64,000 bases of DNA from Nymphaea colorata (taxonomy: Eukaryota > Streptophyta > Magnoliopsida > Nymphaeales > Nymphaeaceae): the NCBI RefSeq assembly GCF_008831285.2, contig NC_045141.1:26525315-26589314 (forward strand), given 5' to 3'. A program made the translations under genes and the position numbers. Positions 10,255 through 57,400 of the stretch are shown in pieces; the stretch's first letter is position 1; every line of letters starts with the position of its first letter. The notes beneath the pieces were generated by a model, which ran no database searches, was not told where the DNA came from, and was given only the letters and a program-made list of their open reading frames with translations.

Positions 10255-11377
10255 TAGCATGTCTTAAAAAAACAAACATTCAGATTTCAAACATCCAAGA
10301 TGCATTGCGAATAGGGTTGGATTCGAAACTGAAAATAGCTAGAAGGCATAAAAAATGCCACCAGTTTACTAGAAATACCAACTCAAGTTTAAGCATTATC
10401 ATCCTTAATAAGTTGGCCAAGCTGGAGCCCAGGCTTTGATGCTAGTTACAACTCCGGTGTACCCTTTCTTTGTTTATATATAAATTAGATCCTCGTCGCA
10501 CACTCTTAAGGCTTCAGGAAAGTGGCAAACAATCAACCTCATAGCCTTCATAATTATGTTTTATCATAAGCTACCAAGGCACATGTTTTGGTAACTGAAA
10601 AACTGATTTTAAAATTGATCCGAGTCCAACTATTTGATTTCCACAATAACCTTTCCCAGTTAAAACCTGGTCTGATCGAGTTTGGAAAATAATGTTTCAA
10701 ATTCTAATTGGATCCAGCCGATTCTCTAAATCTTTTTTGTTGACCAATTCGATTTTGAGATTGACCTTAACAACATCGCTTTTAAGTAAAGCACAACCAT
10801 TGTCTACTTTACTCATATGCACCTCTTCAAGCATTCTTACAACACTTTCTCCAGTTTACATTGACCTATACATTATAGATATCATATAAGCTTAGGTTAT
10901 TATATAACTTTAGGCACAAACATGCAATCGATTTATGAATGAAATGTATATATATATATATATACATGAAATCGAATTTGTGAATGAGAAGATGATAGGA
11001 CAAGTAAAGTAAGAAGGAGGAGTCAAATGATTAGGGGAAGGAGATGCCGGGGAATGGGGGTACAGGATGACAGGATGGCGGGGCCCGGCACCAGGATGGA
11101 AGGCCAGGCCAGGCAACGGCATGTTGACGCACGTGACGGGGAGCCCCCCCTTTCCTTATGAACCGCCTGCCCCACGTGACCACCACTCCCACCTGTCGGA
11201 CGGATGCTCCCCCGGTCCTCCCTCTCCGGCTCCGCTCATCATCGACTCAACGCTCCTCCCTTTTCTTTTGACGGTAGCAGCCGAGCCGAGTCGAGCCGAG
11301 CCGATTGAGGATGAACGCTTTTAACCATGGTTAAGTTTGACCTCCTAAGCCCCCACGCCTCGTCATCATTGCATGGC
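10255..11377. other. Upstream region of the HD-Zip gene with two G-boxes
   Basis: AT-rich to about 11040, then GC-rich up to the TATA box. A short TA run lies at about 10948-10963. Two CACGTG boxes at 11130-11135 and 11173-11178 lie about 200-250 bases upstream of the TATA box and are good candidates for proximal light or hormone control of the HD-Zip gene. No coding region was seen. Confidence 0.45.
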
Positions 11378-11385
11378 TATAAATA
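11378..11385 (+). promoter_or_regulatory. TATA box of the HD-Zip gene
   Basis: TATAAATA sits 268 bases upstream of the ATG at 11646, preceded by GC-rich DNA and followed by a CT/CAT-rich leader typical of a plant 5' UTR. This predicts a transcription start near 11410 and a 5' UTR of roughly 230 bases. Confidence 0.7.
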
Positions 11386-11645
11386 GCGGACCACCCTTCC
11401 TCCTCCCACCTCATCGTCATCGTTGGCGTCGTCCTCATCATCACCACTGCTCGTCCCACAACACCATCGTCGTCTGCATCTCGTCATCTGAAGCTCACTG
11501 AGAAGAGGAAGCAGAGGCGGGGAAGACTTATCTCATTCAAACAAACTTTAGGAGAAGGGGAGGAATCGAAGGAGGGGCTGCTAGTGGAAGGTTTTCTCTT
11601 GGGTTTTTTTTTTTCTTTTTCTCGAGACGCGGTGGGGAGAAGAAG

Positions 11646-13334
11646 ATGGCGGAAGAGATAGGGTTGGATCTGAACCTCTTCTCGGGGAATCATCACGCGT
11701 TGCAGTTGAAGCTCTCGACCGACGCTTCGACTTCGCTGCCGGGCCTTCGTCTTCACAACGCATCTCCACGTGCGGATCTCTCTCCAGGTACCGTCAACGG
11801 AAGAAAACCTGTGCTCGATGCTTTTCCTATTTTTTTGGCTCTTGCATCGATCCTTTTATTTGTTCCTGATCCGGAAATCTGGACTCAGGGTGCTTTTCAT
11901 GGCGGACTTCCTTATTTTGTATCGTTTTCTTCTTCTTCCACACCCCCGCCCTCCTTTTTTTTTTTCACTCTTTTGAGTTTTTACCTAATTACCTGATCCG
12001 TCATAGCAGCTAAAAAAGGGGCTGTGGCCTTTGAACGTGTCTCCGAAGAATCGGATATCGGATCCGATTCGCCTGGAGATAGGAGACCATGGAATATGAT
12101 CTCCCTGGTCGATTTGCTTGGTTTGCTATATAATCTGATCCCTGATTAGACGACTCGTTTCGGTTAAAAATTATTGGGAACCACTGTTGCATGTGGGAGC
12201 TAATATCAAAACGACGTTGTCTCGTGCAGACAGAAATCCCGGCAACTTCAGAGTGGAGACGAGACGCTTTCTTAAGGGGATCGATGTGAATCGACTGCCT
12301 GATGCCACGGACGGAGACGGCTTCGAGGAAGAGGAGGAAGAGGAAGCCGTAGCCAGAGCATCCTCGCCTGCAAGCACGGTCTCGAGCCTGAGCCTGAGCG
12401 GCAACAAGCGAGGAGGAGACAACGATCTCCTCCTGGAGGATGACAGGTCTTCTCCTAGAGGAGGCGCCGGAGGAGGAAATGGTGCCAGCGACGAGGAGGA
12501 CACCTCCAGGAAGAAGCTGAGGCTAACCAAGGACCAATCTGCCGTCTTGGAGGAGAGCTTCAAGGAGCACCCCACTCTCAATCCCGTAAGCATCATCTCC
12601 AGCCTGACCTTTCTTTGTTACCAATTTGTGAGAAGATTCTCGACGATATGATTATTTCTTCTTATACTGATGCCCTGTGGTGCTTGTTTATTCTCAGAAG
12701 CAAAAACTAGCGTTGGCCAAGCAGTTGAATCTCCGGCCCAGGCAGGTGGAAGTCTGGTTCCAGAACCGCAGAGCAAGGTATAGCTACCCCCAAAAATTTT
12801 CGCGTTCTTTGCATTTGTGTGTCACTCCATACATCTCCCACATGGTTGTGTACTTTGCCGTATTTTTACAAGGATGGCCGGTAAAAATCCGGACTTATCC
12901 TACTTTTTTGGATCTGCTGGGATATTTTACTGAAACGCCCTAGTATTTGTGGGATTAGATGTATGGGAAGTCGATTTTTGCCTTCATTAAGATCTTTGTT
13001 GAAGGGATGTAAATTGATCAACTAACTCAGACTGCCTTAACTGGTTGTTTGCAGAACCAAGTTGAAGCAGACAGAAGTGGACTGCGAATTTCTCAAGCGT
13101 TGTTGTGAGAATTTGACGGAAGAGAACCGGAGACTGCAGAGAGAGTTGCAGGAGCTCCGGGCGCTCAAGCTCTCCCCTCAATTTTACATGCCTGTCCAAG
13201 CCACCACGCTCACCATGTGCCCTTCTTGTGAGAAGCTGGCGGCCATGGCCGCCACCAACAACCATTGCCGGATCCCGCCATCCGCCATTAGCCCGATTCC
13301 AATCCGCGGCTTCGACATGCCGGCGCGTTCATGA
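11646..13334 (+). CDS. Class II homeodomain-leucine zipper transcription factor
   Basis: Exons 11646-11787, 12230-12585, 12698-12777 and 13055-13334 give 285 residues with phase kept at every junction. Residues 7-11 (LDLNL) and 19-23 (LQLKL) are both LxLxL EAR-type repression motifs. An acidic low-complexity linker precedes the homeodomain (about 138-194, with WFQNRRAR at 186-193). The zipper has leucines at 206, 213, 220 and 227. The redox-sensitive CPSCE motif at 248-252 is the hallmark of HD-Zip class II. An intron inside the homeodomain (after residue 166) and one after WFQNRRA match the family layout. These nuclear proteins bind CAATNATTG-type sites as dimers and usually repress, acting in shade avoidance, auxin response and leaf polarity. 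The HAT14/HAT22-like subgroup is likely but not settled. A CACGTG also occurs in exon 1 (11767-11772). Confidence 0.95.
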
Positions 13335-14458
13335 GAGAAAGAACTGGTGTAACCGGTGGAGCCTTCCTTTTTTCTGGTTTTCCGGCCGATTGCTGTGTTT
13401 CTTTTGCCATGCGAGTGTTATCTATCAAACATAGATTAACACGTCGGTCTGAGCCTTTCTTTTCTCTCTAATTAAAGAACAAATTTGTAGCCGGATTCTT
13501 TTGTTATGAATGTAAAAATCTGTAGCTTTGTATCTGAAATTATCGGAATCAATGAATAGCTGCTTCTTTACAAAATTCTGTCCAGGCCAAGGTAGTACAG
13601 TATGATCAATAAGCTTTTTCCTTCTTTTTGAGTTAAGTTGAGGTTGAAAAACCGTAGCTTGCTTTTTACAGAAAAGAAGAAAGAGAAACTATTGAAAGAA
13701 TTTTTTAGACCATACAATTCCATCAATGAACAGATAACCCGGTTGGATTCCAAAAAAGATTTCGAAAAGTGAATCTTAGGGCTTCTCCCGGTCGGCCTTA
13801 CTGCAGAGATTCAGGAACTTTTGAAAAAATAATTGGTGCAACTACAGCCACTTCGTAAAAAAAAGGTATGAATCGTTCTGAGTAAACAGCCTTAAAGAGA
13901 AAGAGGACAGAAGTGCCCCATCTGGCACATGGGGAGACGAGCTGCAATACCCAGAAGTTCCCAAATGCGTGCTGCTTTTGGGCAAGATAAACCAGCATTG
14001 CCAATACCGAAGCCGGAGATGAGCCGTTTTTAAGTTGTTTTTTGTTAAGTTTAAATTCAAAATTCTTTTAAATATTTACTGAAAAAGAGACCGATAATTG
14101 GCAAGACCGAGTGGGTGGTTGCAGCTTTGAAAAGTTACAACTCTTCGCACGAGTGACAGAGAGAACTCTACGGCGCCGTTTCGTTTGGCATCAGGGACAG
14201 GGACACTGTTCCAGTGGGTTATAATGATATAATAATGAAATACAAGCAAAGTGTCTCTACTCCAAACAACTTTTATAAAGATGCATTAAGATTCAGACGG
14301 CTAATTGGAACTTAGCTAGTTAACTAATTAATTTAGATCACAATAATAACCCATGACCATCCTCACTACAGGACACCAGCACGACTCTTGAATAGGCTTT
14401 GCTCTTTTTTAACTTGGTTTTCACGAACTTGTATTTCATGAATCTGTATGATTTGCAT
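13335..14458. other. 3' UTR of the HD-Zip gene and intergenic DNA
   Basis: The first roughly 230 bases are probably the HD-Zip 3' UTR. The rest has no supported gene. The last 10 bases before 14458 (ATGATTTGCA) match the end of ARPC5 intron 3 and belong to the inverted exon duplication that follows. Confidence 0.45.
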
Positions 14459-14594
14459 GTACCTATATAGAGGCTTGGCTACTGGGGACCGACCTACTTG
14501 TGACCAGTGTCTCCGGATTCACGAAAGGCTGACTGAGAAGGCAGGTTTAGGGTGCATCCTACCAGCACTTTCAGACACAACAAATACTGTCTGA
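14459..14594 (+). pseudogene. Inverted duplicate of the last coding exon of ARPC5
   Basis: This 136-base block is an opposite-strand copy of ARPC5 exon 4 (15670-15805, minus). It has the same length, no indels and four mismatches by my count (about 97% identity). In the exon's phase it stays open through 44 codons and ends in the same TGA (14592-14594). Its protein differs from the functional exon by one substitution: LPA replaces LRA near the end. Similarity extends about 10 bases upstream (ATGATTTGCA) and stops at the stop codon. The splice acceptor AG is lost (TTTGCAT instead of TTTGCAG), so it should not be spliced as an exon. No copies of exons 1-3 are near it on this strand. It could be a non-functional exon copy or one arm of a hairpin. 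Confidence 0.85.
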
Positions 14595-15669
14595 TATCAC
14601 ACTCTGATGGTTTCTCAACATTTAGTGAATCGCCTCTGGCGTTGTCCTGTCATAAGAAGGACATGCAAGGCTTGAGCCCATCCAAGAATCCAGGCCCAAG
14701 TGGCTGGGCCTACCAGAGCTTCTGTTCATGTTAAAAAAAGGAAGGGGAAAAAAAGGCGAGATGAGGGCCAGTAGTCTCCCCAGTGACTGATAGGGCGCTG
14801 GATGAACCGATGGATCATCGTGTTACACACGATCAGTGTCCCATGAGAGCATGGTAAGTGGATCATCTTTGCAGGTTAAGAAATTCACCTAGAGTTTACA
14901 AGGCAGGGTTCATTAAGCGACCTCTAGTTCCAATTGGTGACGTAAATTGTTCAGACCTGGTTTCACGATTTGTCTCGCTTCTGCTGTACTGGATTTGAAG
15001 CAATCCGATTTTGCATGTTTTCAGATTGTTCAAACCTGAGTTATATCCGTAATTGCAACTCAAGTTACCCCCTTCACCAGGGACACGAGAGATGCCAGTA
15101 TCCATTAGAAGGGTATCTGTCGAAGGACCATGGACACATTTTACATGCTGCACGCCTGCGTTGGTGTATTAGCCTAAAGACTTCGAGTGGGAGAAAGCCA
15201 AATCATCATTACATCCTTTGCTGCAAGTCTAAAGTAATGGAAAGACCACCTGTTCAAAAAAGAGGGCACCAAGGATTCTAAATAAAAGGATAAACAGAAC
15301 AGAGTACGAAAAATATCAACCTCTGGAATAGGGAAACATGATGCCCCCAACAAGTTTAGTTCTTTCCATCACCCTTGCAAATTGGAAAAAAGGGAAAAAA
15401 AATCAGCAGCCATAACTCATATACAGGATTCCAAGAACAATCCATTATCATTTTTGTGTCTCCAGACAGTCAAACAGGTGCAAAACTGGATTCAAAGTTT
15501 TATATGCTGATTATAGCTAAATTACACGCAATAGACAAGCAAGATGGCATTTGCTGGCACTACTGTAGAAAAATACTGAATCTCTTTCTCTCCTCCGACA
15601 GATCGAATCTGTGATTTCAGCAGATTGTCTGTGTGGTTTAGCCATGTATCTCCTTCCAAATGGGTAGAT
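14595..15669. other. Spacer between the inverted ARPC5 exon copies
   Basis: 1,075 bases with only short ORFs on both strands and no recognisable domain. Reading from the functional ARPC5 gene on the minus strand, this is where its 3' UTR must lie. It would form the loop if a transcript ran through both exon copies. Confidence 0.5.
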
Positions 15670-18600
15670 TCAGACAGTATTTGTGGTGTCTGAAAGTGCA
15701 CGTAGGATGCACCCTAAACCTGCCTTCTCAGTCAACCTTTCGTGAATCCGGAGACACTGGTCACAAGTAGGTCGGTCCCCAGTAGCCAAGCCTCTATATA
15801 GGTACCTGCAAATCATGGAACATCGTTAGTGGAAAAGTTGGCTTTATCCGCTAAAGCAACTGCAAGACATAATCGGATAAATTCACCAAAAGGTTCCAAG
15901 CGCCAAAAACGACAAAATGAACATAATAATTCTTTGGTGTATATCCTTTGTAAAGGCATATTTTTGTTTACTGAAGGGTGTAGATGAGACTAGATCCAAC
16001 ATGTTCCCATTATCTTCTGGGAGTGCATGACGGCTGTCTTTACCAAGAAAGCAACTGCACTGGGACAATTAGACCAAGAAAACGGAAGAAACATAAAAGA
16101 TAAAAGGATGACTGGTGCTGCCATTTGCCTCAGATTTCACAGACACAACAACAACAAAAAGAAAGCAGTACCTACAAGCGCTCCTAAATCCCACCATTTA
16201 GAGCAAGCATTCCCACTACTAACCCAATGTATAAGCAACAAAAAGGCTGAGGGACATAGTGATGAAGAGATGCAATCCTTGCATGACTTGGATTTACGCC
16301 AAGCCCTAAATATACCATTCCAGGTTACAGTCTAAGTCATGATTCGGGTACTCACATTGGTGAGTGGCATTATTACCAATAATAATTGCTAACCTTCTAT
16401 GCATAATGGAGGTGATGCCTTCAAACATCCGAAAACAAGAAAACGAACACTTGTGAAAAAGCAACCTTGAGATTTGTCAAAAGAAAAAGTGGACTCACAG
16501 TCACCCTGCACCTACAGCCACCACTTTGATACATATGGCCCCAAAGTAGAAGCACATTTTGTGGTTTGGACACTCTCACAAGCCTTGCCTCATCAAGATT
16601 CAGTCCTAGAGGGATCAAATGTTCCATATGCATGCACTCCTGAATCTTCAGAAATCAGAAAACAATACGTTGTCATCATCAGAAGTGTGTCACTACTCCA
16701 AATTGATGATTTTGGAAAAAAAAAAAAAAGTCATAGAAATGATAATGATGAATGTAAGCCCTTGAAGGGTGCACAGAAAATACAACTAATCCAGCTATCA
16801 CTGTCTTGTTGAGGAGAACCGAGAACAAGTATATTATTACCGAGAAGAGAAAAGGAAGTTTATACCTAGGCTATTAACACATGCAAAGCAGACACGAACT
16901 TCAAAACCAGAAATTAGACAATCAGACAGACCCATGTCACTTAGGCATCCCATATGAACCTTAAAGCATTTTAAATTCATTATCTTAACTAGCCAAGAAA
17001 AAGGTTGCGCACCATGTATAAGAATCTCCTCATTATATTTGTGAGAGAGAGAGAAGGGTAAGTAACCTAAAGGAGAAGGCCAGAAAATAAGAAGGAAAAA
17101 GAAAAGGAGAGATCAACACGTTTGTATCCTTAGACATTGTGCTTATGTCACATATTATATGATACATATGAATAAAAAGGAAAAAATATAAAACAATGAG
17201 AAGCATGCAAACACAAAAACCAAAAGTAGAGAAAATACCCAATACAGAAAAGGACACACAACATCCTGCCATCCAAAGAGCCCCATCCTTAGGCGTTCAA
17301 GGGTCATTACACTCAATGAGCCTTATGAAATCTTGGTCCCTACTTCTTTATATTAAGTGAGTGCAATTTATTTGTCTATTGTCATCTTTTCTCTTGTATT
17401 TGCATAAGTTGTAGGACATGATTGACCTTCTCATTTGTTGATTGTTGCATCCATTACGATTCTTACTGTTTTTGTGAACCTTGAGAAAAATTGTGCACAA
17501 AATGGACTGGTCTGCCTGATGCTTTCGTACAACTTTCTAGGTAGAATATAAGTGACTACTATTAATTGCAATAACCATTTAGCATCACAGAGCAACTTCT
17601 CCAATGGAAATTTTCATCCAAAAATTATTATCATGTTTCAATATGGAAATTTTATATATTCTCCAATTTTTCAGTTTAAATCTTTTTTGTGCCCATTTTA
17701 TAAATTTCTGGTGTTATATCAAGTATCAACTTTTCTCCCTCCTTTCTATGTTTCTAAGAGATATTTGTTTTCAGGTCATCCAGCTATGCTTAATCTGGCA
17801 AAATAACTTATGAGTTATGTCCCAAAGTCAGCAAATTTTTAGGATAAGCTATAGGTCTCAAGGGTCTCTATTCAGATTTACTCATATGGATGATACAACG
17901 CTAATCTTGCCTCAAAGTTTTGAACTTGGGTTGTATTCCTATGTAGTACCAGACTACCAGTAGTGAATCTCAAAAAATATTTTGGAGTAATCGAACTTTG
18001 GGAGTCATATTAAGTTATTTCCATGGTGAGCTCCTATTAAGATGATAAGTTCTTGATACATTATGGGGGCATCGGCAATGTATGTTTGGATATTAAGAGT
18101 ATAAGACTATTCCAACCCCTGAGACGTGATACATGGACGACCATCACCTTCCTTTCTTATTGCTTATTTTCTTTGAATAGCAATCAAGGGTTAGGCAGCC
18201 TCCTTAAGTATGCCAGAAGCTGTGCCATGGATGACAAAAATGTCACAACCTTCAACTTGAAGATCTTTTAGGTCTGGCCCCCCCTAGCCAGGTTGAGAGA
18301 GCTCACCTTTGGCTTCTTGATGTTTTTATGCTTGCTTGCAATAGTTTTGTATTCTACATACAGCTCTTCTGTTCCTGAATAATCATGCTATACATAGCTT
18401 GCCAAATGTTAAATAACACATACAACCAAGACATAATCATGCTGCAGATAACTTGTTTAATGTTAAATAACGTACATAGATGTCTACTATCACAGACATG
18501 CACATGGATATTTGTCATGTTTGCCCATTATCTTTTTTTTTTTTGACATAGTGTGTTTGTCATATTTGTCATGTTTGCCCATTATCTTTAAATTAACAAA

Positions 18601-19891
18601 ATCACCATAAGAGCAACTAACTACTAGAAACTTTCCGGGTCAGAGAACCATCTGTTTCGGCTTCATGGTCGACACTAGAAGCTCATAATTCATGAAAACC
18701 AGTACAAAACTCTCAAGGAGGGAAAAACAGTATCACTTACTTCATTAGGATGTCATAGTATTCTACGTCTAAAGAGGAGAATAATGCATCCACATCTTTG
18801 ATGGCCATCATAGCCCGGTGCACCACTATCCAGTTTGCAGACTGCCAAGCGGAAGGAGAAGTTACATGCAGAAAACAAGGAAAAGAAAAATAAAATAGAA
18901 ACCAAACTAAAGCCATGACCATTGCAAAAGAAAATAAGGAATAAAGGAGCAACGACAGCTAATACTTGTGAATCACAGTTAAACCACCAAAGCCCAACAA
19001 GGCACCAAGGTTTAACGCACAAATTGATGGCCTTGAGGTCATTAACATAGGAGAGAGCTGGCTACCAAGTGAGAAATCAAGGGTTCGAGTTGAAATAGGC
19101 ACTTCCTCCAAAAATTAGAAGGTTACGGCTGTCTTGCCCCGCCCCTGCCAAGTATTCCTGCATCCAGGAGTCCATTACATATAGTCCTCTTGATTATACG
19201 TAAATGACCCAAATAAATTTTCAATAGCGAACCACATAGTTCAGTGGGATTATCTTCAAGCATAATTGAACCCCAAAGTCATACAGCTATCCAGCTAAGT
19301 GCGGAAACAAGTTCAAAGGCAAAACTGTAGAGATCCAAACAACCACGATATCCCAGTTAATGCATTTGACGTCAGGATTCCTCAATTCAAGCAAAAAAAA
19401 ATCCATTTAAACAGCACCATCATTGCATTGCTAAGATTCCAAACAGGACCAGGAAAAACAAATTATTCGAGCTTCGGGTCAACGTGTTTTACTTCCAAGA
19501 AATTTTCCCATGAAGGGTCTCCAGTGAACCGAATAAGCAACAGAAAGCTCATCTTCGCATATTACATGCGGAATGAACAGACCGATGCATGACGGTACAA
19601 TTGACCAAGAACCAACCTTACATCTCTCGTCCAAGGTTTTAGGTGGGGATCCTTCCAGAGCAGTTTTCAGTGCCTCCACGGGCTTCGATCTGTGAGAAAG
19701 AGAGAAAAGGAGAACGGTGATCTTCCGAGGGGGAGTTTAGGAGGAACAACTAACGAACGATGGAAATAGGGGGAGAACAAGAGGTGTGCTCACGATCTGA
19801 GCAGACGTTCGATTTGGCGCGACTTGTTTTCGATTCTCATGATGATTGCTTCCGCGTTGTCTGCTTCCATGAACTGAGGCGCTTCCGCCAT
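15670..19891 (-). CDS. ARPC5: Actin-related protein 2/3 complex subunit 5 (p16)
   Basis: Minus-strand exons in order: 19891-19794, 19689-19617, 18841-18741 and 15805-15670. All have GT/AG borders and continuous phase, giving 135 residues. The protein starts MAEAPQFMEADNAEAII and carries the family motifs VEALKTALEGSPPKTLDERC, NWIVVHRAMMAIK, YYDILMKYLYRGL and TCDQCLRIHERLTEKAGLGC, ending near LSDTTNTV. Length and order match plant ARPC5 end to end. ARPC5 is the smallest subunit of the seven-protein Arp2/3 complex. Activated by SCAR/WAVE, the complex nucleates branched actin and shapes trichomes and pavement cells. Intron 3 (15806-18740) is about 2.9 kb and contains a fragment of the PTPMT gene in antisense orientation. 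The final exon has an inverted copy 1.1 kb beyond the stop. Confidence 0.96.
17292..18562 (+). pseudogene. Duplicated fragment of the PTPMT gene inside ARPC5 intron 3
   Basis: This segment closely matches 30894-32322, which holds the 3' two-thirds of PTPMT exon 2 and most of intron 2. Matching starts abruptly at GGCGTTCAAGG in the exon and ends at a T-run about 30 bases before PTPMT exon 3. The copy has lost about 130-150 bases present in PTPMT (around 31330-31490). Its exon part carries a one-base deletion, and a C-to-T change makes the last exon codon CAA into TAA, so it is not coding. It reads in the plus direction, while ARPC5 reads minus. Confidence 0.9.
19021..19185 (+). mobile_element. 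SINE-like tRNA-derived sequence in ARPC5 intron 2
   Basis: A B-box-like GGTTCGAGT (about 19081-19089) follows, at about 45 bases, a degenerate A-box-like TGGCCTTGAGG (from about 19028). This arrangement and the following GC-rich tail resemble plant tRNA-derived SINEs. No poly-A end or target duplication could be defined, so the call is tentative. Confidence 0.3.
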
Positions 19892-22800
19892 CGAGACCCC
19901 TGGCAGCCCCTCTCACTCCCTCTCTCTCTACGCCACTCGATCTCGAACTTTTTGCGGCAGGGTAGGAACTTGGTCCGGCACTTATCAAGTCACTTGTATT
20001 TGGGTTTTGATACTTTCGTTCTTGGAGAGCGTCTGGATGATACACACCCACTAAGAAATGGTTTTGTGAAAATTTATTAAAAAAAATTTTTAATCAGTTT
20101 TAAAAAATTGGTAATAAGATCACCTTTTTTTAATAATCAGTTTTTAAAATTGGTAATCAGTTAAACAAGATTTTTCAAAAATTCTGTCGCCAAAACTCAT
20201 TCTTAGTATGATCAAAATGCACTTGAAATGGGTTTTTGGAAACAAAACCACCTTTAACCTACAAAAAGTGATGTTAGAATATCAACCATTTGATGGAAAG
20301 AAAAATATTGTATTCGAAAAACAAATGTACATGAGAAACATAGTATATTTATTACAAAAATATGTATAATATTTGTTTGTTATATTTAGAAATAGTATTT
20401 ATAATCATTATTATATGAAACAATTATACGGTGTTTTTATTACATATGTGTTGGTACATTTGTTTTACGATCAAAACGTTATTCTTGTCAAACACCTTTT
20501 TCAACCTAAACGTTCATAATGTGTATGATATACCTATAATTATGGATTTTTAAAATCAAAATACTCATTTTTAAGAAATTAAAATTATTAAACAAACATG
20601 GTATTTTATTTTCAGAATTAGGAAACTAAAGCTTGGAATTTAAATTTCATTTCAATTTGAAAAGGAATTATGGTTTTAGAATTTTCATTATTGAATCAAA
20701 ATTCCAAACCATCAAACGCTCGATACATATTCAATTTCTCTCTCTCTCTCTCTCTCGTCCGTCTTAAATCTACAGTAATTAGACAAGGGTTCAAATAAGT
20801 ACATATACCTCTAGCCATCCTACTAAACCCATAGGCTATCAGTTTTCATGCTGGTCCAGATTATCCAGCCGTTGGTATTGGATCCATTCAAGAATGTGAT
20901 CGGCACTAGGACTATAAACGGGTCGTACAGTACAAATTTCTTGGCAAGTTTGAAAAAATTCCATCCGAATTTGATCCAACTCCTGAATGTATCAATATCC
21001 CAAATATTTGCAACCATAATTAGCAAACTTCCTAAGAAAAAGCGTTCCTCAAAATCTCATTATTCAATTTTGAGATTAACAATTTGTGCGAATTTCAAAA
21101 TTGCACTTTCTTAGCACGAGGAAACATTCCGAGGCAACGATGCCTTGCTTGCTGTTCTTGCCACATTTTTTGCAGCTTTTGCATATTCGTATTTTCCTAA
21201 CAAAAATAACTTCGTTCCATCCTCTTACAGTCGATTTGAATCGAGCAATTCAACTGAATTCAGAAAATATATTAAAAAAAAAGAAAGTTATATAAAAAAA
21301 ATATAAAGATTCTTAAAAGATTTTAATAAGATTATGGCGCAAGACACTCTTGAATTGACTGTTAAATCAAATCAATTTGAAAATCAGCCGTTTAAAGTTA
21401 ATTCTAGTACCGGTGAGGTGGAACTCTAACTCAAGCATGATAAGTATTTCATCTTACCATTCATAAGAAAACCGAAGCTCCCACCCTATCTTGTATCTTT
21501 ATAAGGTGCAGGTCTACTTTTGATGCTTGGAATGTTGTCTCCTTCATGTTTTAACTTTCTTAAGCATCAGTTGCTTCTTGTTTGCAGTATAAGGTAAGGG
21601 AGTTAGTTGTCTCCTTCGTGTTTTAACTTTCTTAAGCATCAGTTGCTTCTTGTTTGTAGTATAAGGGAGTTAATGTTAGCAGAATTTGAAATAAAAACTA
21701 ACCCTACCAACTCCCATCCTTTCATCCTTTACTGCTTGACCTCAGTTAGGAGGACTCTAACTCAGCCTTTTTGCATCCATAAGTAGCACAAGAAAAAGTT
21801 TTAGCTTCAAAATTAGCATTAATTTTAGCATGACCTTAGCTTATCTAGTGGTTGATCTTGAAAGTCAAGGGCCCAAGGTCACTCACCAATAAAAATATTC
21901 ACATTTTTTGAGGGAGGAAAAAAGAATTATGAAGTACATATACAGACCATGTGCTTATCCAAACGCCGATTAGAAAAGGTAAAAGCCATTTCTTTTAAAT
22001 ATAAAGCAAGCCAAAGGTGAAAAAGCGCTCCACCAAACTGTTCGAACTCTCCAAAAAATAAAAGCCGGGTCAGGATCATGACGAGCTATCTTTCTGCGCA
22101 GATCTGATTCTATCATGAACTCGCGTTCATTACATCACTACATCTAAATTTAAAAGAAAAGATAAATTGTACTGTATTCACACCTCAAATTGGTATGTTT
22201 ATGACTTGGAAGCCATTAATGAGCAGACAAAAGGTCAATTGCGCATTAGTTAAAGTAGGGTACTTCATAAAGGAAGGACTCCCATTAAGTGGCCTGGTTT
22301 TTGGTGGGTTCCAGCTCGTCGTCCCCTCGAAAAGATTAAATGGCAACGTCGATCTCGTGCGAAGAGTTGCTGGTTCCACTTCCACAGATAAAGCATAATG
22401 GATCTCGAGAAATTGCCAAACAGTTTCTCCTATCTTTCTCAAGATTGGGAAGCGTGCATTGTGCTGCTTGGAATCCTTCATACCTTCAACAATACTTTAT
22501 TCCTTCCCGATGCCCGTTAAGGCTCTTGAAATCCTTCACAAGGGCCGTCGGTGAGTGGGGAATGCATATAAACTCACAATTAAGGCCAAACTTAGACTGG
22601 ATATACAGATAACACAATTGTGAAGAGACATTAAGGAATGCATTTTAAAAAATTTCACGTGGAAGCTTCTTTCACAGCGGATTTCGTTAAGATTATATCG
22701 TGTTTAGAACTTTAGAAGTCGTAATCCTCTGAAACACTGTTTACGCTTTAAGACTGTTGTGTGAGAAGGGCAACAGTTTCCTGTTTTCTATGTAAAGTTG

Positions 22801-28229: not shown

Positions 28230-31200
28230 ATGTACATTGAGGAATTGGAAGAGGAGACTTTACCGGACCATCATGATGGCAAGCAACTATTAGATGTTTC
28301 AAATTATACGGTTGTCCAATCAACTGCCAAAAGAATCCTGGTTGGGGCAGGTGCCCGTTTCTTGTTCTATCCAACTCTTTTATATAACATCTGCCGGCAC
28401 AAGATCGAGCCAGATTTCCATTGGTGGGATGAGGTTGATCAGGTTTGTTTTCTACATAAGCAACCCTTCCACTACTTTTAACCAAAAATGTGTGACAGAG
28501 GTAAAGATACTGCCATTGGCTTGTTCCCTTGCTGTTTTGATGTAAACATATACATTATTAGAAAAGCAAATCATTTACTGATTTGATTTCCATATAAAAA
28601 AAGGAGAGATGTTTATGATATTATATTTTTCTATGTAAATGTTTTCTTGTTCATAAAAACTCTGTGTTTGATTCCAGTTGACCATTTAACGTATAAACTG
28701 CATGTGAATTGCCCCATTTGTTCCTTGAGGCTGTAGAGGTCGTGTAAGAGTATTGTCTACACTACTCTACAGAAATGAAGACAAAGACATTAATTTTCTT
28801 TATTCCTTATGTCCTGCTTGTGGAGAAATGACATAACAGCTACTTGTCTTTGGTGTAGTATTTTTAACTATGACAGAATGCCATGCAAAGATATATGTAG
28901 AAAGGTTTAATTAGAAGAGTAATCTATCTTAAAGAAGGTGGTAAGTTGTCTCATTATATTGTTATTGACATGTTTCTAACTTTCTACTAATTTTAACATG
29001 GATGCAAGACATGTTTCGATGTGGAGAATTGAGAGATGCTTATGATATTATACTTTTGTTGGTAAAAATTCTGTGTTCCATTCCAGTTGACTACTATCAA
29101 TGCACAAACTCTATATGAGGTTTCCCATTTGTTCCATGAGGCTGTAAAGCTTGAGCACGAGAATTATCTACAGGAATGCAGCATTAATGTATTGATATTC
29201 ATATACTTCAAAGCAGTGGATGTTTGAACATGCCCAATGTCTGTTTTGCATTAGACTTATTTGATGTGTACTCCAGTGACTCCCCAAAAGGTGCACTGGC
29301 TATCTGAAGTTTGGGATCTACTTTGGAGAAATTTTGTTTGTTGTCAATGGTTTCTAACTTTCTATAGTTAAAGGATATATTTTGGGTTGTTCAGGAGCGA
29401 TTAATCTTCATTTAATTTAATAATTTCGTTATATGGAATGAACCAAGCTTTTCTTCCCCCACAGCATCTGTTTTATTTTCTTTCTTCCCATCATCTGTTT
29501 TATTCTCTTTACTCCTTATGTCCTGTTTGTTGAGAAATGGCATAGCAAGTCATTGTTATTTGTATAACGTTTCAACTTCCAACTATTACAGAACCATATA
29601 TTTGAAAAAGTTTAGTTAGCAGAGTTAGCTCGCAAGAAGTTCGTCATCTTAAACAAAAAGCTCACTTCTCTATTGTTAATGTGTTAGCTATGTCATGAAC
29701 AGGCTGTGCCTAGCCCTAGGTGCCTTAGGCAACGATTACAATAATGAAGCTATTAATTAGCTTGTATTAAGTTGTATAATACAACATCAACCCATAACAG
29801 TCAATAATATATTATATAATTAATAATTTGTATTATACTTGTATAATGAAGACAAAATGCAAAGTTTATACTTTATAGCTTTGGATATTCAAGAAAAATG
29901 ATAAACAGTTAGCAGAAATCATAAATCATTTTCAGGGAACTGTATAAAATGGGTTCAAACTTCAAACATAAAAGGAAAGCTGTAAAACAAACCTAGCTCC
30001 TAACACAATTGAGTCAAAAAAGTTATGTACGGATTACAGTCAAGTTTATATAAAGTATAAACAGTTTACTTGTAATTTTGTAAGTAAAGAATATAATCAA
30101 GAATCATATGAGTTATGACGACATTAGCTGAAAGCCTGAAACATAAATCAGATTTTTCACAAAACAGAAATCAGACTTCCCATGTCAAAGATTTTAGAAA
30201 GCTTGAACATTACCAAATCTACATGTCTATTTCACAGGAAAACTGAAAATTATGAACTGATTGTAATGAGTAACATGCTCACTGTAAATAGACAAATGAA
30301 CAGACTGTAATCAAATGGCAAACAGAGTTACAGACTATATAATGAAACAAAATCTATATAAACATTATTACATTAAAATATCAGTCAATATAGATTATGG
30401 ACAAATAAACAGGCTTTTATCAAATGAGTTACAGACACAGTTACAGAAATTTTAATGGAACAGGACCAATATAAACATTATTACATTAAAAAGTCTACTG
30501 CATAATATATAAACAGTCACAGCCTAAAAAGGTGCACCAGAACAGTCTCCAGTCCCAGTTAATCTTTATTAAGTATCCTTTAAGAGCCCCGCTGAGAGAC
30601 TATGGGACTTCTATGGAGTAGGCGCAGGCTGGGCTAGACTCGCCTAGTCCATAAATAGATGTATGATTTGCCTAAGTGCTTGGACTTAGCCACTTAGGCG
30701 ATGCAGGTGGAGTAGTGACTAGGCATGTGCCCCTAGGCGACGCCTCAACAACACATATTTTTATTGTTAGCTGTTGATTAAATGTACGGTATGTAAACCT
30801 GGCTGCTTTGACATATGCTAATAATTCAAGTTTCAGTTTGTAATTTTAGGTGCTGTCCCATTTCCCAAGGATGTTCCTCATTTAAAACAATTGGGCGTTC
30901 AAGGAGTCATTACACTCAATGAGCCTTATGAAATGTTGGTCCCTACTTCTTTATATCAAGTGAGTGCAATTTATTTGTCTATCGTTATCCTTGCTCTTGT
31001 ATTTGCATAAGTTGCAGGCACGTGATTACCTTCTCATTTGTTGAATGTTGCATCCATTAGGATTCTTACTGGTTTTGTGAACCTTGAGAAAAATTGTGCA
31101 CATTATAGATTAAATGAACTAATCTGGTTGATGCTTTCGTACAACTTTCTGGGTAGAATATAAGTGACTACTATTAGTTGCAATAACCATTTAGCATCAC

Positions 31201-32629
31201 AGAGCAACTTCTCCAATGGAAATTTTCATCCAAAAATTATTGTCTTGTTTCAATATGGAAATTTTATATACTCTCCTATTTTTGTGTTTAAATCATTTTC
31301 ATGCCCATTTTATAAATTTCTGGTGTTATATAAACTATCAAGTATCAACAGTTTTTTCTCTTTATTTTTAAAGACATGGTTTTCATTTTTGACCTGCTGC
31401 TTTAGATTCTGAGTACCATATCATGTATTAAGCTACTTCTCTCAGCTATGCTATTCTTTGCCAGATGAACATGCATCCGACCTGAACTTATGTGTTTGCT
31501 CCCTTCTTTCCATGTTTCTAAGAGATATTTGTTTTCAGGTCATCCAGCTATGCTTAAGCTGGCAAAATAACTTATGTCCTAAAGTCAGCAAATTTTAGGA
31601 TAAGCTGTAGGTCTCAAGGGTCTTTATTCAGATTTACTCATATGGATGATACAACGTTAATCTTGCCTCATAGTTTTGAACTTGGGTTGTATACCTATGT
31701 GGTACCAGACTACCAGTAGTGAATCTCAAAAAATATTTTGGACTAATCAAACTTTAGGGGTCATATTAAGTTATTTCCATGGTGAGCTCCTATTAAGATG
31801 ATAAGTTCTTGATACATTATGGGGGCATCGGCAATGTATGTTTAGATATTAAGAGTATTAAGACTATTCCAACCTCTGAGACGTGATACATGGACTACCA
31901 TCACCTTCCGTTCTTATTGCTTATTTTCTTTAATAGCAATCAAGGGTTAGGCAGCCTCCTTAATTATGCCAGAAGCTGTGCCCTGGATGTCAAAAATGTC
32001 ACATCCTTCAACTTGAAGATCTTTTAGGTCTGCCCCGTTAGCCAGGTTGAGAGAGCTCACCTTTGGCTTCTTGATGTTTTTATGCTTGCTCGCAATAGTT
32101 TTCTATTCTACATAAAGCTCTTCTGTTCCTGAATAATCATGCTATATATAGCTTGCCAAATGTTAAATAACAGATACAACCAAGACATAATCATGCTGCA
32201 GATAACTTGTTTAATGTTAAACAACGTACATAGATGTCTACTATCACAGACATGCACATGGATATTTGTCATGTTTGCGCATTATCTTTTTTTTTTTTTT
32301 TGGAAATAGTGTTTTTTGTCTAATTAATTGCATGTACTTCAAATTTCAGATTCATGGCATTGACCATCTAATGATTCCCACAAGAGATTATTTGTTTGCC
32401 CCATCTTTTGTGGACATATGCCAAGCTGTGGACTTCATTCATAGTATGTAATTGTTCTGCTAGCTAAAATTTCGGTTGGTCATACTTGTGCACCAATGAA
32501 AGTGCAGCATTGATACAATACCAGGTTCCTTCATATCATTTTGGAAAAAGAACCGTGCATTTTTGCTTTCACCTTGTATTAATTCGAATGGTCTATTTTG
32601 GAAAAGGTACATGCGCCTGTGTATTATAT

Positions 32630-44210: not shown

Positions 44211-44340
44211 TAGCTTATCCTTTGCAACATGCCAGTGGGAAATTTAGTGCTAGCTGTGACGGATAGCGTGTGATGTAGCTTATCCTTCGCAACATGCCAG
44301 TGGGAAATTTAGTGCTAGCTGTGATAGATAGCGTGTGATC
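44211..44340 (+). repeat. Two-copy tandem repeat, 65-base unit
   Basis: The unit TAGCTTATCC at 44211 recurs at 44276. The copies differ at only a few positions (TTTGC versus TTCGC; GACGG versus GATAG). This is a recent, non-coding tandem duplication in or beyond the AATF 3' UTR. Confidence 0.9.
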
Positions 44341-54431: not shown

Positions 54432-57400
54432 ATGAGCCGAAGGGTACGCCGAAAAACCATCCTCAACCAGGATAAGGAGAAGGTTGTCGTCCACAATTCT
54501 TGTGGCAATGGGGTATGTGAGGAAACCTGTCATTCGGAGGGTAACTTAGTAGATGCCGACTGGACAAGTCTACCAGATGACACAGTTGTTCAAATATTTT
54601 CGTGCTTGAACTATAGAGACAGAGCTAGCCTTTCTTCTACTTGCAAGACTTTTCGGACTCTAGGATCTTCTCCATATTTGTGGACTTCATTAGATTTGCG
54701 TGCACACAAGTGCGACATTAGGACAGCAGCTTCCCTCGCTAGTCGATGCAAAAATCTGAAGAAGCTGAGGTTTCGTGGTTCCGATTCAGCTAACGCAGTG
54801 ATGTTTCTCCATGCCCGGGATCTTCGGGAGATAAGTGGTGATTGTTGCAGGGACATCACTGATGCAACTCTGTCGGTAATGGCTGCTCGACATGAAGCCC
54901 TCGAGAGCCTCCAGATTGGACCTGACTTCTGTGATAGGATCACTAGCGATGCAATTCAGAAGGTTTCCATGTGCTGTCCAAAGTTGAAGAGGTTGCGGTT
55001 ATCAGGAGTGAGGGACATTGATGGAGAGGCAATCCTTTCGTTGGTGAGAAACTGTAAGCAGCTTGTAGAGATTGGGTTCATGGATTGCTTGAGGGTTGAT
55101 GCACCCGCACTTGAAGATGCTGTGTCGGTTAAATTTCTCTCTCTTTCAGGGTCAAAACACATAAATTGGAGTTTGTCCTCCCAGGCTTTGAGTAAATTGC
55201 CCAATTTGGTTGGTTTAGATGTTTCTCGAACGGATGTGCCCACCAGTGCTATTCTCAGATTGCTATCTTCCGAGAGCTTGAAGATTGTAAATGCCTTGCA
55301 TTGCTTATCTTTTGAAGAGGGTGGCAATTATGCATCGTCTGATGTTAAGTCTAAATTTCTTCTTACTCCATTCACTGACATGTTTAAAGGGCTCTCTTCC
55401 TTGATCTGTGGTTTGGTTCAGCAGGAAAGAGTTTTGGAGAATGATAGTAAGCTATTCTGGCTCTCTTCCTTGATTAGTGGTTTGGTTCAGCAGGAAAGAA
55501 TAACTAAGATCGATAAAAAACTACTTTGGAACCAGAGAAACCAAATAGCGGTTGATGGTACCTCTAGGGATGTTATAGATTGGATGGAGTGGGTTCTCTC
55601 ACATTCTCTACTGCGCATTGCAGAAAACAATCCTCCTGGACTGGATGGTTTTTGGGTGGGGCAAGGTGCGGCATTGCTGTTGAGTCTAGTCCAAAGCCTT
55701 CAAGAAGATGTCCAAGAGAGAGCTGCTACCGGGTTGGCAACTTTTGTAGTTATTGATGATGAAAATGCAACTGTTCACCCTGGAAGGGCAGAAGCAGTGA
55801 TGTCAGGGGCTGGAATTCGTCTTCTACTTAACCTTGCTAGGTCTTGTCGAGAGGGTGTCCAATCAGAGGCAGCAAAAGTAATTATTATGACTTAATTGTC
55901 TTCAGTACTGTCATAGGTTCTTTAGGTTTCATCAAGTTTTTGTTCGCTAATGGTTCCCACTTTTACTTGATAAAGGTTAAAAAGTCCTTTATGCTTTAAG
56001 GATGTTTTTGACTGGTTTTCTCCTGATCATGCTTTTCTATGAATGATGCTGAAGCGTTAAATGTGCAGGCTATAGCAAATCTGTCTGTGAATGCTGATGT
56101 TGCCAAAGCGGTGGCTGTTGAAGGAGGAATCAGTCTCCTTGCTGCCCTTGCAAAGTCTCCAAACAGATTGGTTGCTGAAGAGGCAGCAGGAGGCCTTTGG
56201 AACCTTTCCGTTGGAGAGGAACACAAGGTTAGTTTGTTCTGGCTAATTTCTGATACACCATCTTGATTCTACATATTATACTTTTTTGTCTTTCTCTCTG
56301 CTTTGATTTAAAAATGGACTGCCTATGAATTTTTATTGTTTCATCTCTTAGGCAGCTATTGCTGAAGCGGGTGGAGTACAAGCCCTGGTTGACCTTATAT
56401 TCAAATGGCCTTCGGGTGGTGATGGAGTCCTTGTATGTGTTTGTCTTTTCTGTTTCTTCACATACTTTGCTCAACAAGCTACAATGTGCATCATGGTGAA
56501 CAAGTTTCTCTTCACTTTTGGATTGTTTATCCTTCGAGAATAGGAGCGTGCTGCTGGAGCGCTTGCAAATTTGGCAGCAGATGATAAATGTAGTATGGAA
56601 GTTGCTGTGGCTGGTGGAGTCCATGCACTGGTGATGCTAGCTCGATCTTGCAAATCTGAGGGGGTGCAGGAGCAGGTGTTCTCAAACATTTCATTTTACA
56701 ATTCATTTTTATCTACAGTTGGTTGTGGCATCAGGTGTGCCATATTTCTCATGGTTTTAGTCTTTTAGTCATAGATTACATATATAAAAAGAAGTCTGTA
56801 TGCTTCAGCTACTTGTTTGCATTGTTTCATGTCTTGTTAGTACCAGTCATATCTGCCTATTTGTACCCTTCCTGTTATTTGGTTGTTGACATTGTCCCTG
56901 CTTTGGTGGTGGTTGTCAAGTACTTATTTATGTCCACTTTTTCTGTTTAAGCCTTAACACAACAAAAATGACACTTTGTCATTGTTTACAGAAAATACTA
57001 TTATACTCTAGGGGTCTTTGTGTCATGGACATAAACATTTTTCCTGAAAATCTTGTTATCATAGAAAATATATTGAAAGAGGAAAGAGGGCTATAAATAA
57101 GTTCTCAAAGTATGAATGGAGGATAGCATATGCAGAGAAGACATAAAGACGTACTGAACTTTCAAGACCACAATCTTTTCTTTACCCTGAGTTGGTTACA
57201 AAATTTGAAACTGCTTTGGTCTTGTCTTTCTTTCATCGTTATCCATTTACAAGTAAGTTTATTCCTAGTGAAAAAAAATCCTTTTAACCTGCATTTGTTG
57301 GAAGCAGAGTTGTGTTTATCACTTATATTCTCTCCAAAGTGCATAAAGTCTAGTCTTGCTATTACACTTAAAGTTTTAAAATAATTTAATGATAGTGCTA

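Follow-up and report, generated by a model that had tools for sequence, protein, structure and literature searches.

How did the last coding segment of ARPC5 come to be present twice, in opposite orientations, beside the end of its own gene? We analyzed this question in a window of 64,000 nucleotides, the whole stretch of DNA presented here, which spans 26,525,315-26,589,314 of contig C4. Our analysis indicates that a 147-nt piece of ARPC5 was probably copied as DNA and inserted in inverted orientation, by a template switch or by SDSA (filler-type) repair, and that the copy is now most likely a non-functional pseudo-exon.

Parent gene, inverted copy and local background

The features of the locus are as follows.

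12139..13334, plus strand: HD-Zip-type homeobox gene (HD-ZIP_N and homeodomain pieces; Pfam), approximate ends
14448..14594, plus strand: inverted copy, 11 nt from the end of intron 3 followed by the 136-nt final coding segment of ARPC5 (BLASTN, Pfam P16-Arc)
14595..15669, no strand: spacer of 1075 nt, which presumably holds the ARPC5 3' UTR (own-genome search)
15670..15816, minus strand: donor, made up of 15816-15806 (end of intron 3) and 15805-15670 (final ARPC5 coding segment) (BLASTN, gene model)
15670..19891, minus strand: parent ARPC5 gene, four coding exons, 135 aa (gene model, Pfam, solved chains)

The coding exons of the parent gene are located on the minus strand at 19891-19794, 19689-19617, 18841-18741 and 15805-15670. 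The joined frame is open throughout, and all three introns start with GT and end with AG. The predicted protein, used as a 134-aa query that is one serine short, matches P16-Arc in Pfam (E 9.8e-20) and eight distinct ARPC5 or ARPC5-like sequences among solved structures (best E 1.5e-08). The homeobox gene is convergent with ARPC5, and the inverted copy sits between the two genes. The window also contains an F-box gene, presumably ARABIDILLO-like; together these genes point to a plant. On the minus strand from 15669 to 14200, beyond the ARPC5 stop codon, no AATAAA was found, only weaker variants of the poly(A) signal. A search of positions 11000-21000 against Rfam returned no structured RNA at the gathering threshold.

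Intron 3 of ARPC5 has two further features. About 1.27 kb of it (17289-18558) is repeated directly at 30891-32316, as two pieces (91% and 94% identical) separated by about 150 additional nt, and looks like a dispersed repeat. In addition, the end of the intron carries an in-frame ATG eleven bases upstream of the exon (15816-15670, minus strand). A transcript starting in intron 3 could in principle encode a 48-aa C-terminal peptide of ARPC5.

Comparison of the window with itself by BLASTN pairs 14448-14594 on the plus strand with 15816-15670 on the minus strand, over 147 nt at 96.6% identity (E 3e-64). It is the sole pair in the 13-17 kb part of the window. The arms differ by five mismatches and no gaps. 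One mismatch, at 14458, is in the intronic part and changes the acceptor AG to AT. The other four (14529, 14563, 14564 and 14579) fall within the 136 nt at 14459-14594, and both arms share the TGA. These results confirm what the sequence-only reading of this DNA had reported: a second, inverted occurrence of the last coding exon with four mismatches, no indels and the same stop codon, which has lost its splice acceptor and kept its reading frame. Compared with the donor, the copy has ATG for AGG at the splice acceptor, two silent changes (TTG to CTG and ACC to ACA) and a two-base change of CGT to CCA that replaces arginine with proline.

The assembly was searched for further copies. With the 136-nt copy as the query, two places are found at E ≤ 0.001 in the 407.8-Mb, 783-contig assembly, the copy and the donor. 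The 135-aa protein finds five places at the same threshold, the four exons and the copy. Neither a second ARPC5 locus nor another ARPC5 exon beside the copy was found in these own-genome searches (E ≤ 0.001), which score only the best candidates, so that repeat counts from them are lower bounds. The protein match at the copy begins at 14427, 21 nt further upstream and across a TGA, with 78% identity overall. We regard this extension as chance, because this DNA does not resemble intron 3 or, on visual inspection, exon 3. The 1075-nt spacer, used as a query, matches only itself. This result for the spacer, the five differences between the arms and their unrelated flanks argue against an assembly artefact, which we consider most improbable.

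A background sample of 264 kb, composed of the window and a 200-kb neighborhood with a 314-base gap between them, was compared with itself for pairs of at least 40 nt and at least 85% identity, no more than 10 kb apart (E ≤ 1e-8). Of its 87 pairs, 84 are direct, many within one repeat array, and three are inverted. One of the three is a self-palindrome. Another is 173 nt long with 87% identity and arms 9.2 kb apart, each of which has five matches in the 264 kb. The third is the ARPC5 pair, the only inverted pair in the sample that is both short-distance and low-copy.

Several direct repeats were seen nearby. Short direct duplications, separated by 2-29 nt and with 95-97% identity, are found at 44211-44339, 21534-21666 and 55390-55499 (64, 61 and 41 nt, respectively). 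A dense direct-repeat array is located 36-65 kb to the left of the window, at about 26,460,000-26,489,000 of contig C4 (L017-L020), where most places have about 100-130 mutual matches.

Origin of the copy

The borders of the pair are informative about its origin. Homology between the arms stops abruptly on both sides, and four flank alignments were at the level of shuffled sequence (200 shuffles per test, dealt out in two-base blocks). For the 5' flanks, the observed score was reached by 47 of 200 shuffles over 300 nt and by 120 of 200 over 60 nt, and similarity is not above chance at either length. The same holds for the 3' flanks, with 44 of 200 shuffles over 500 nt and 75 of 200 over 60 nt. 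Similarity had been described earlier as covering the exon and about 10 intron bases before vanishing. The abrupt loss holds, and the intron part measures 11 nt. The duplicate had been called exon-exact, which goes too far: on one side it extends 11 nt into the intron, and on the other it finishes with the stop codon instead of reaching the transcript end. Since the terminal exon must run on into the 3' UTR, the match ends short of the real end of that exon. The border on the stop side is itself uncertain by a few bases, because a gapped local alignment that allows a 1-nt gap gains three bases (ATC) beyond the stop codon.

A longer segmental duplication was rejected, as the flank alignments are not above shuffles. 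The arms differ at about 3 of 34 synonymous sites and are thus about 91% alike there (6-9% changed, by our own count); the changes comprise two purely silent codons and one more in the doubly changed codon. With synonymous sites so little changed, flanks copied at the same time should align at about 90%, and they do not align. Selection acting alone on an old duplicate is likewise hard to reconcile with synonymous sites this similar next to flanks that cannot be aligned.

Gene conversion between the arms would account for this combination differently. An older, longer inverted duplication would have decayed in its flanks while conversion kept the coding segment alike. Homology does begin and end close to the limits of the coding segment, and conversion would be feasible between inverted arms separated by 1.1 kb. 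However, conversion tracts are not expected to end at a stop codon, similarity in the flanks does not rise above shuffles, and no second ARPC5 exon accompanies the copy at E ≤ 0.001. The process also requires an extra step that has left no trace. We consider it unlikely.

The 11 intron bases bear directly on whether RNA was the template. Near-restriction of the copy to one coding exon could suggest retroposition of the spliced ARPC5 mRNA. However, the copy continues into intron 3 where exon 3 would be expected, which argues against spliced mRNA as the template, and neither the donor 3' UTR nor a poly(A) tract follows its stop codon. Marks of a processed pseudogene were sought at the copy, and there are no joined exons, no 3' UTR or poly(A) and no direct repeat above chance. 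Retroposition is barely credible on this evidence; only an unspliced RNA template truncated at its 3' end would survive as an RNA-mediated reading.

Capture of a gene fragment by a transposable element (Pack-MULE, Helitron, CACTA or MITE) was also considered, and such capture is documented in plants in the part of the literature consulted (PMC3445842). Inverted matches around the copy are limited to two exact 9-mers and four 17-nt pairs at 82%, which we judge to be at chance level. The longest direct repeat at the ends of the copy is 4 nt, a length reached at 65% of 3000 random positions. No terminal repeat or target-site duplication around the copy was judged above chance, in tests that covered element types other than Helitrons. 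These observations and a spacer that matches only itself make transposon capture quite unlikely.

The presence of intron bases, the absence of a 3' UTR, the likeness at silent sites and the lack of transposon ends judged above chance make a one-step, DNA-templated inverted insertion the simplest account. Consistent with such an insertion, the copy is the reverse complement of nearby DNA and has abrupt ends on both sides. Among the origins proposed previously, copying of DNA by template switch or repair thus fits best; spliced-mRNA copying and selection alone do not fit, and gene conversion would be possible with its additional step. The earlier interpretation is to that extent partly supported. 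We infer that copying proceeded from the donor to the copy, because the donor belongs to an uninterrupted parent frame, whereas the copy is missing the acceptor AG, carries the arginine-to-proline change and has no further ARPC5 exon found next to it.

In the proposed mechanism, a break or switch would have occurred in the stretch about 1.1 kb downstream of the ARPC5 coding end. The last 11 nt of intron 3 and the final coding segment would then have been copied as DNA, in reverse orientation, into this intergenic stretch. Either a template switch or break repair of the synthesis-dependent kind (SDSA, filler-type) is the likely event. Five substitutions would have arisen since, with the copy drifting as a non-functional pseudo-exon. 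The exact pathway is inferred, as microhomology at the junctions is not above chance; the want of a junction signature as proof counts against this reading.

The positions of the borders count against the templated-insertion reading. When segments of 50-400 nt overlapping the exon were simulated, with a tolerance of 4 nt at the stop codon and 11 nt on the intron side, about 0.2% had borders this near the coding limits and 0.001% gave the exact ATG-to-stop frame; both are post hoc values that vary with the length range assumed, so we regard them as a curiosity and not as evidence of selection.

Coding potential of the copy

In both arms, the 147 nt correspond exactly to an in-frame ATG...TGA frame of 48 aa. 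Immediately ahead of the coding segment, the AG-to-AT change turns the splice-site codon of the copy into a second in-frame ATG. The small frame of the copy (MICMYLYRG...NTV) is uninterrupted, is related to a section of the parent protein and matches Pfam P16-Arc with an E value of 4.3e-06. Plant microProteins are small frames made of part of a larger protein. In this respect the copy, as a predicted frame, resembles them.

These features could indicate a functional small gene, which would encode a 45- or 48-aa C-terminal microprotein of ARPC5 or act as an antisense or dsRNA regulator of it. The exact ATG-to-stop extent of the 147 nt and the additional ATG would favor a microprotein. If a minus-strand transcript ran through both arms, these would pair over nearly their whole length in the folded RNA, which would favor a dsRNA regulator. 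However, the donor already has the same frame, starting from its intron end. At the position where the copy has proline, both solved ARPC5 chains with a displayed alignment share the arginine of the donor. The changes are too few for a selection test, and a hairpin RNA would require read-through of more than 1.2 kb beyond the stop codon. A functional small gene is therefore very unlikely, and the copy, which has neither acceptor nor adjoining exon, appears to be a decaying pseudo-exon.

An extension of the break-repair reading is that the copy has become a new small gene, whose expressed 45- or 48-aa microprotein or antisense or hairpin RNA would tune the Arp2/3 complex. We consider this highly improbable. 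Expression of the small frame, if it occurred, would illustrate how a microprotein gene can arise from a repair scar in a single step. A literature search on a microprotein of the plant Arp2/3 complex found nothing.

Comparison with known systems

The locus cleanly illustrates inverted copying of DNA over a short distance near a plant gene, and is recent enough that its borders can still be read. It indicates that a short templated insertion can mimic an 'exon-precise' duplicate. We regard it as a local templated duplication of an ordinary kind that happens to look neat. Searches on ARPC5 exon duplication in plants found no such copy by title or abstract start. Searches on inverted exons found none about ARPC5 on the same basis, among the matches listed.

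Pack-MULE, Helitron and CACTA capture also places a gene fragment at a new site, as the consulted part of PMC3445842 describes. Unlike such captures, the ARPC5 copy showed no element ends in the tests for terminal and direct repeats.

Template switching is expected to generate inverted copies nearby, according to the excerpted text of PMC7954356. Like the short-range template-switch mutations of the four-point model described there, the copy is a short reverse complement of nearby DNA with abrupt ends. Those mutations are modeled within a single replication fork, whereas here 147 nt were copied over 1.1 kb, and fitting points 1-4 would require the ancestral sequence. For a template switch within one fork, 1.1 kb is a large distance, which counts against that reading.

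Yeast templated and foldback insertions, in the portion of PMC11724301 drawn on here, are likewise inverted and locally templated. They range from 2 to about 150 bp, most being shorter than 14 bp, and have one junction with only 0-5 bp of microhomology. They are primed at inverted microhomology beside the break, whereas the ARPC5 template is 1.1 kb away and no priming homology is shown.

In plants, filler DNA of 1 to 123 bp (mean 13 bp) was reported in 58 of 94 rice excisions in the section of PMC4423477 available to us. The 147 nt of the copy are beyond this range and at the top of the yeast foldback range, which counts against the reading as a repair insertion. In contrast to SDSA fillers as characterized in the parts cited (PMC3445842, PMC4423477), the copy is longer than the rice examples, and no transposon insertion or excision was recognized nearby. 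Gene pieces can act as filler DNA in plants, as PMC3445842 states in the passages used. The ARPC5 copy resembles these SDSA fillers and gene-fragment insertions (PMC3445842, PMC4423477), in which repair of a break inserts copied pieces of genes.
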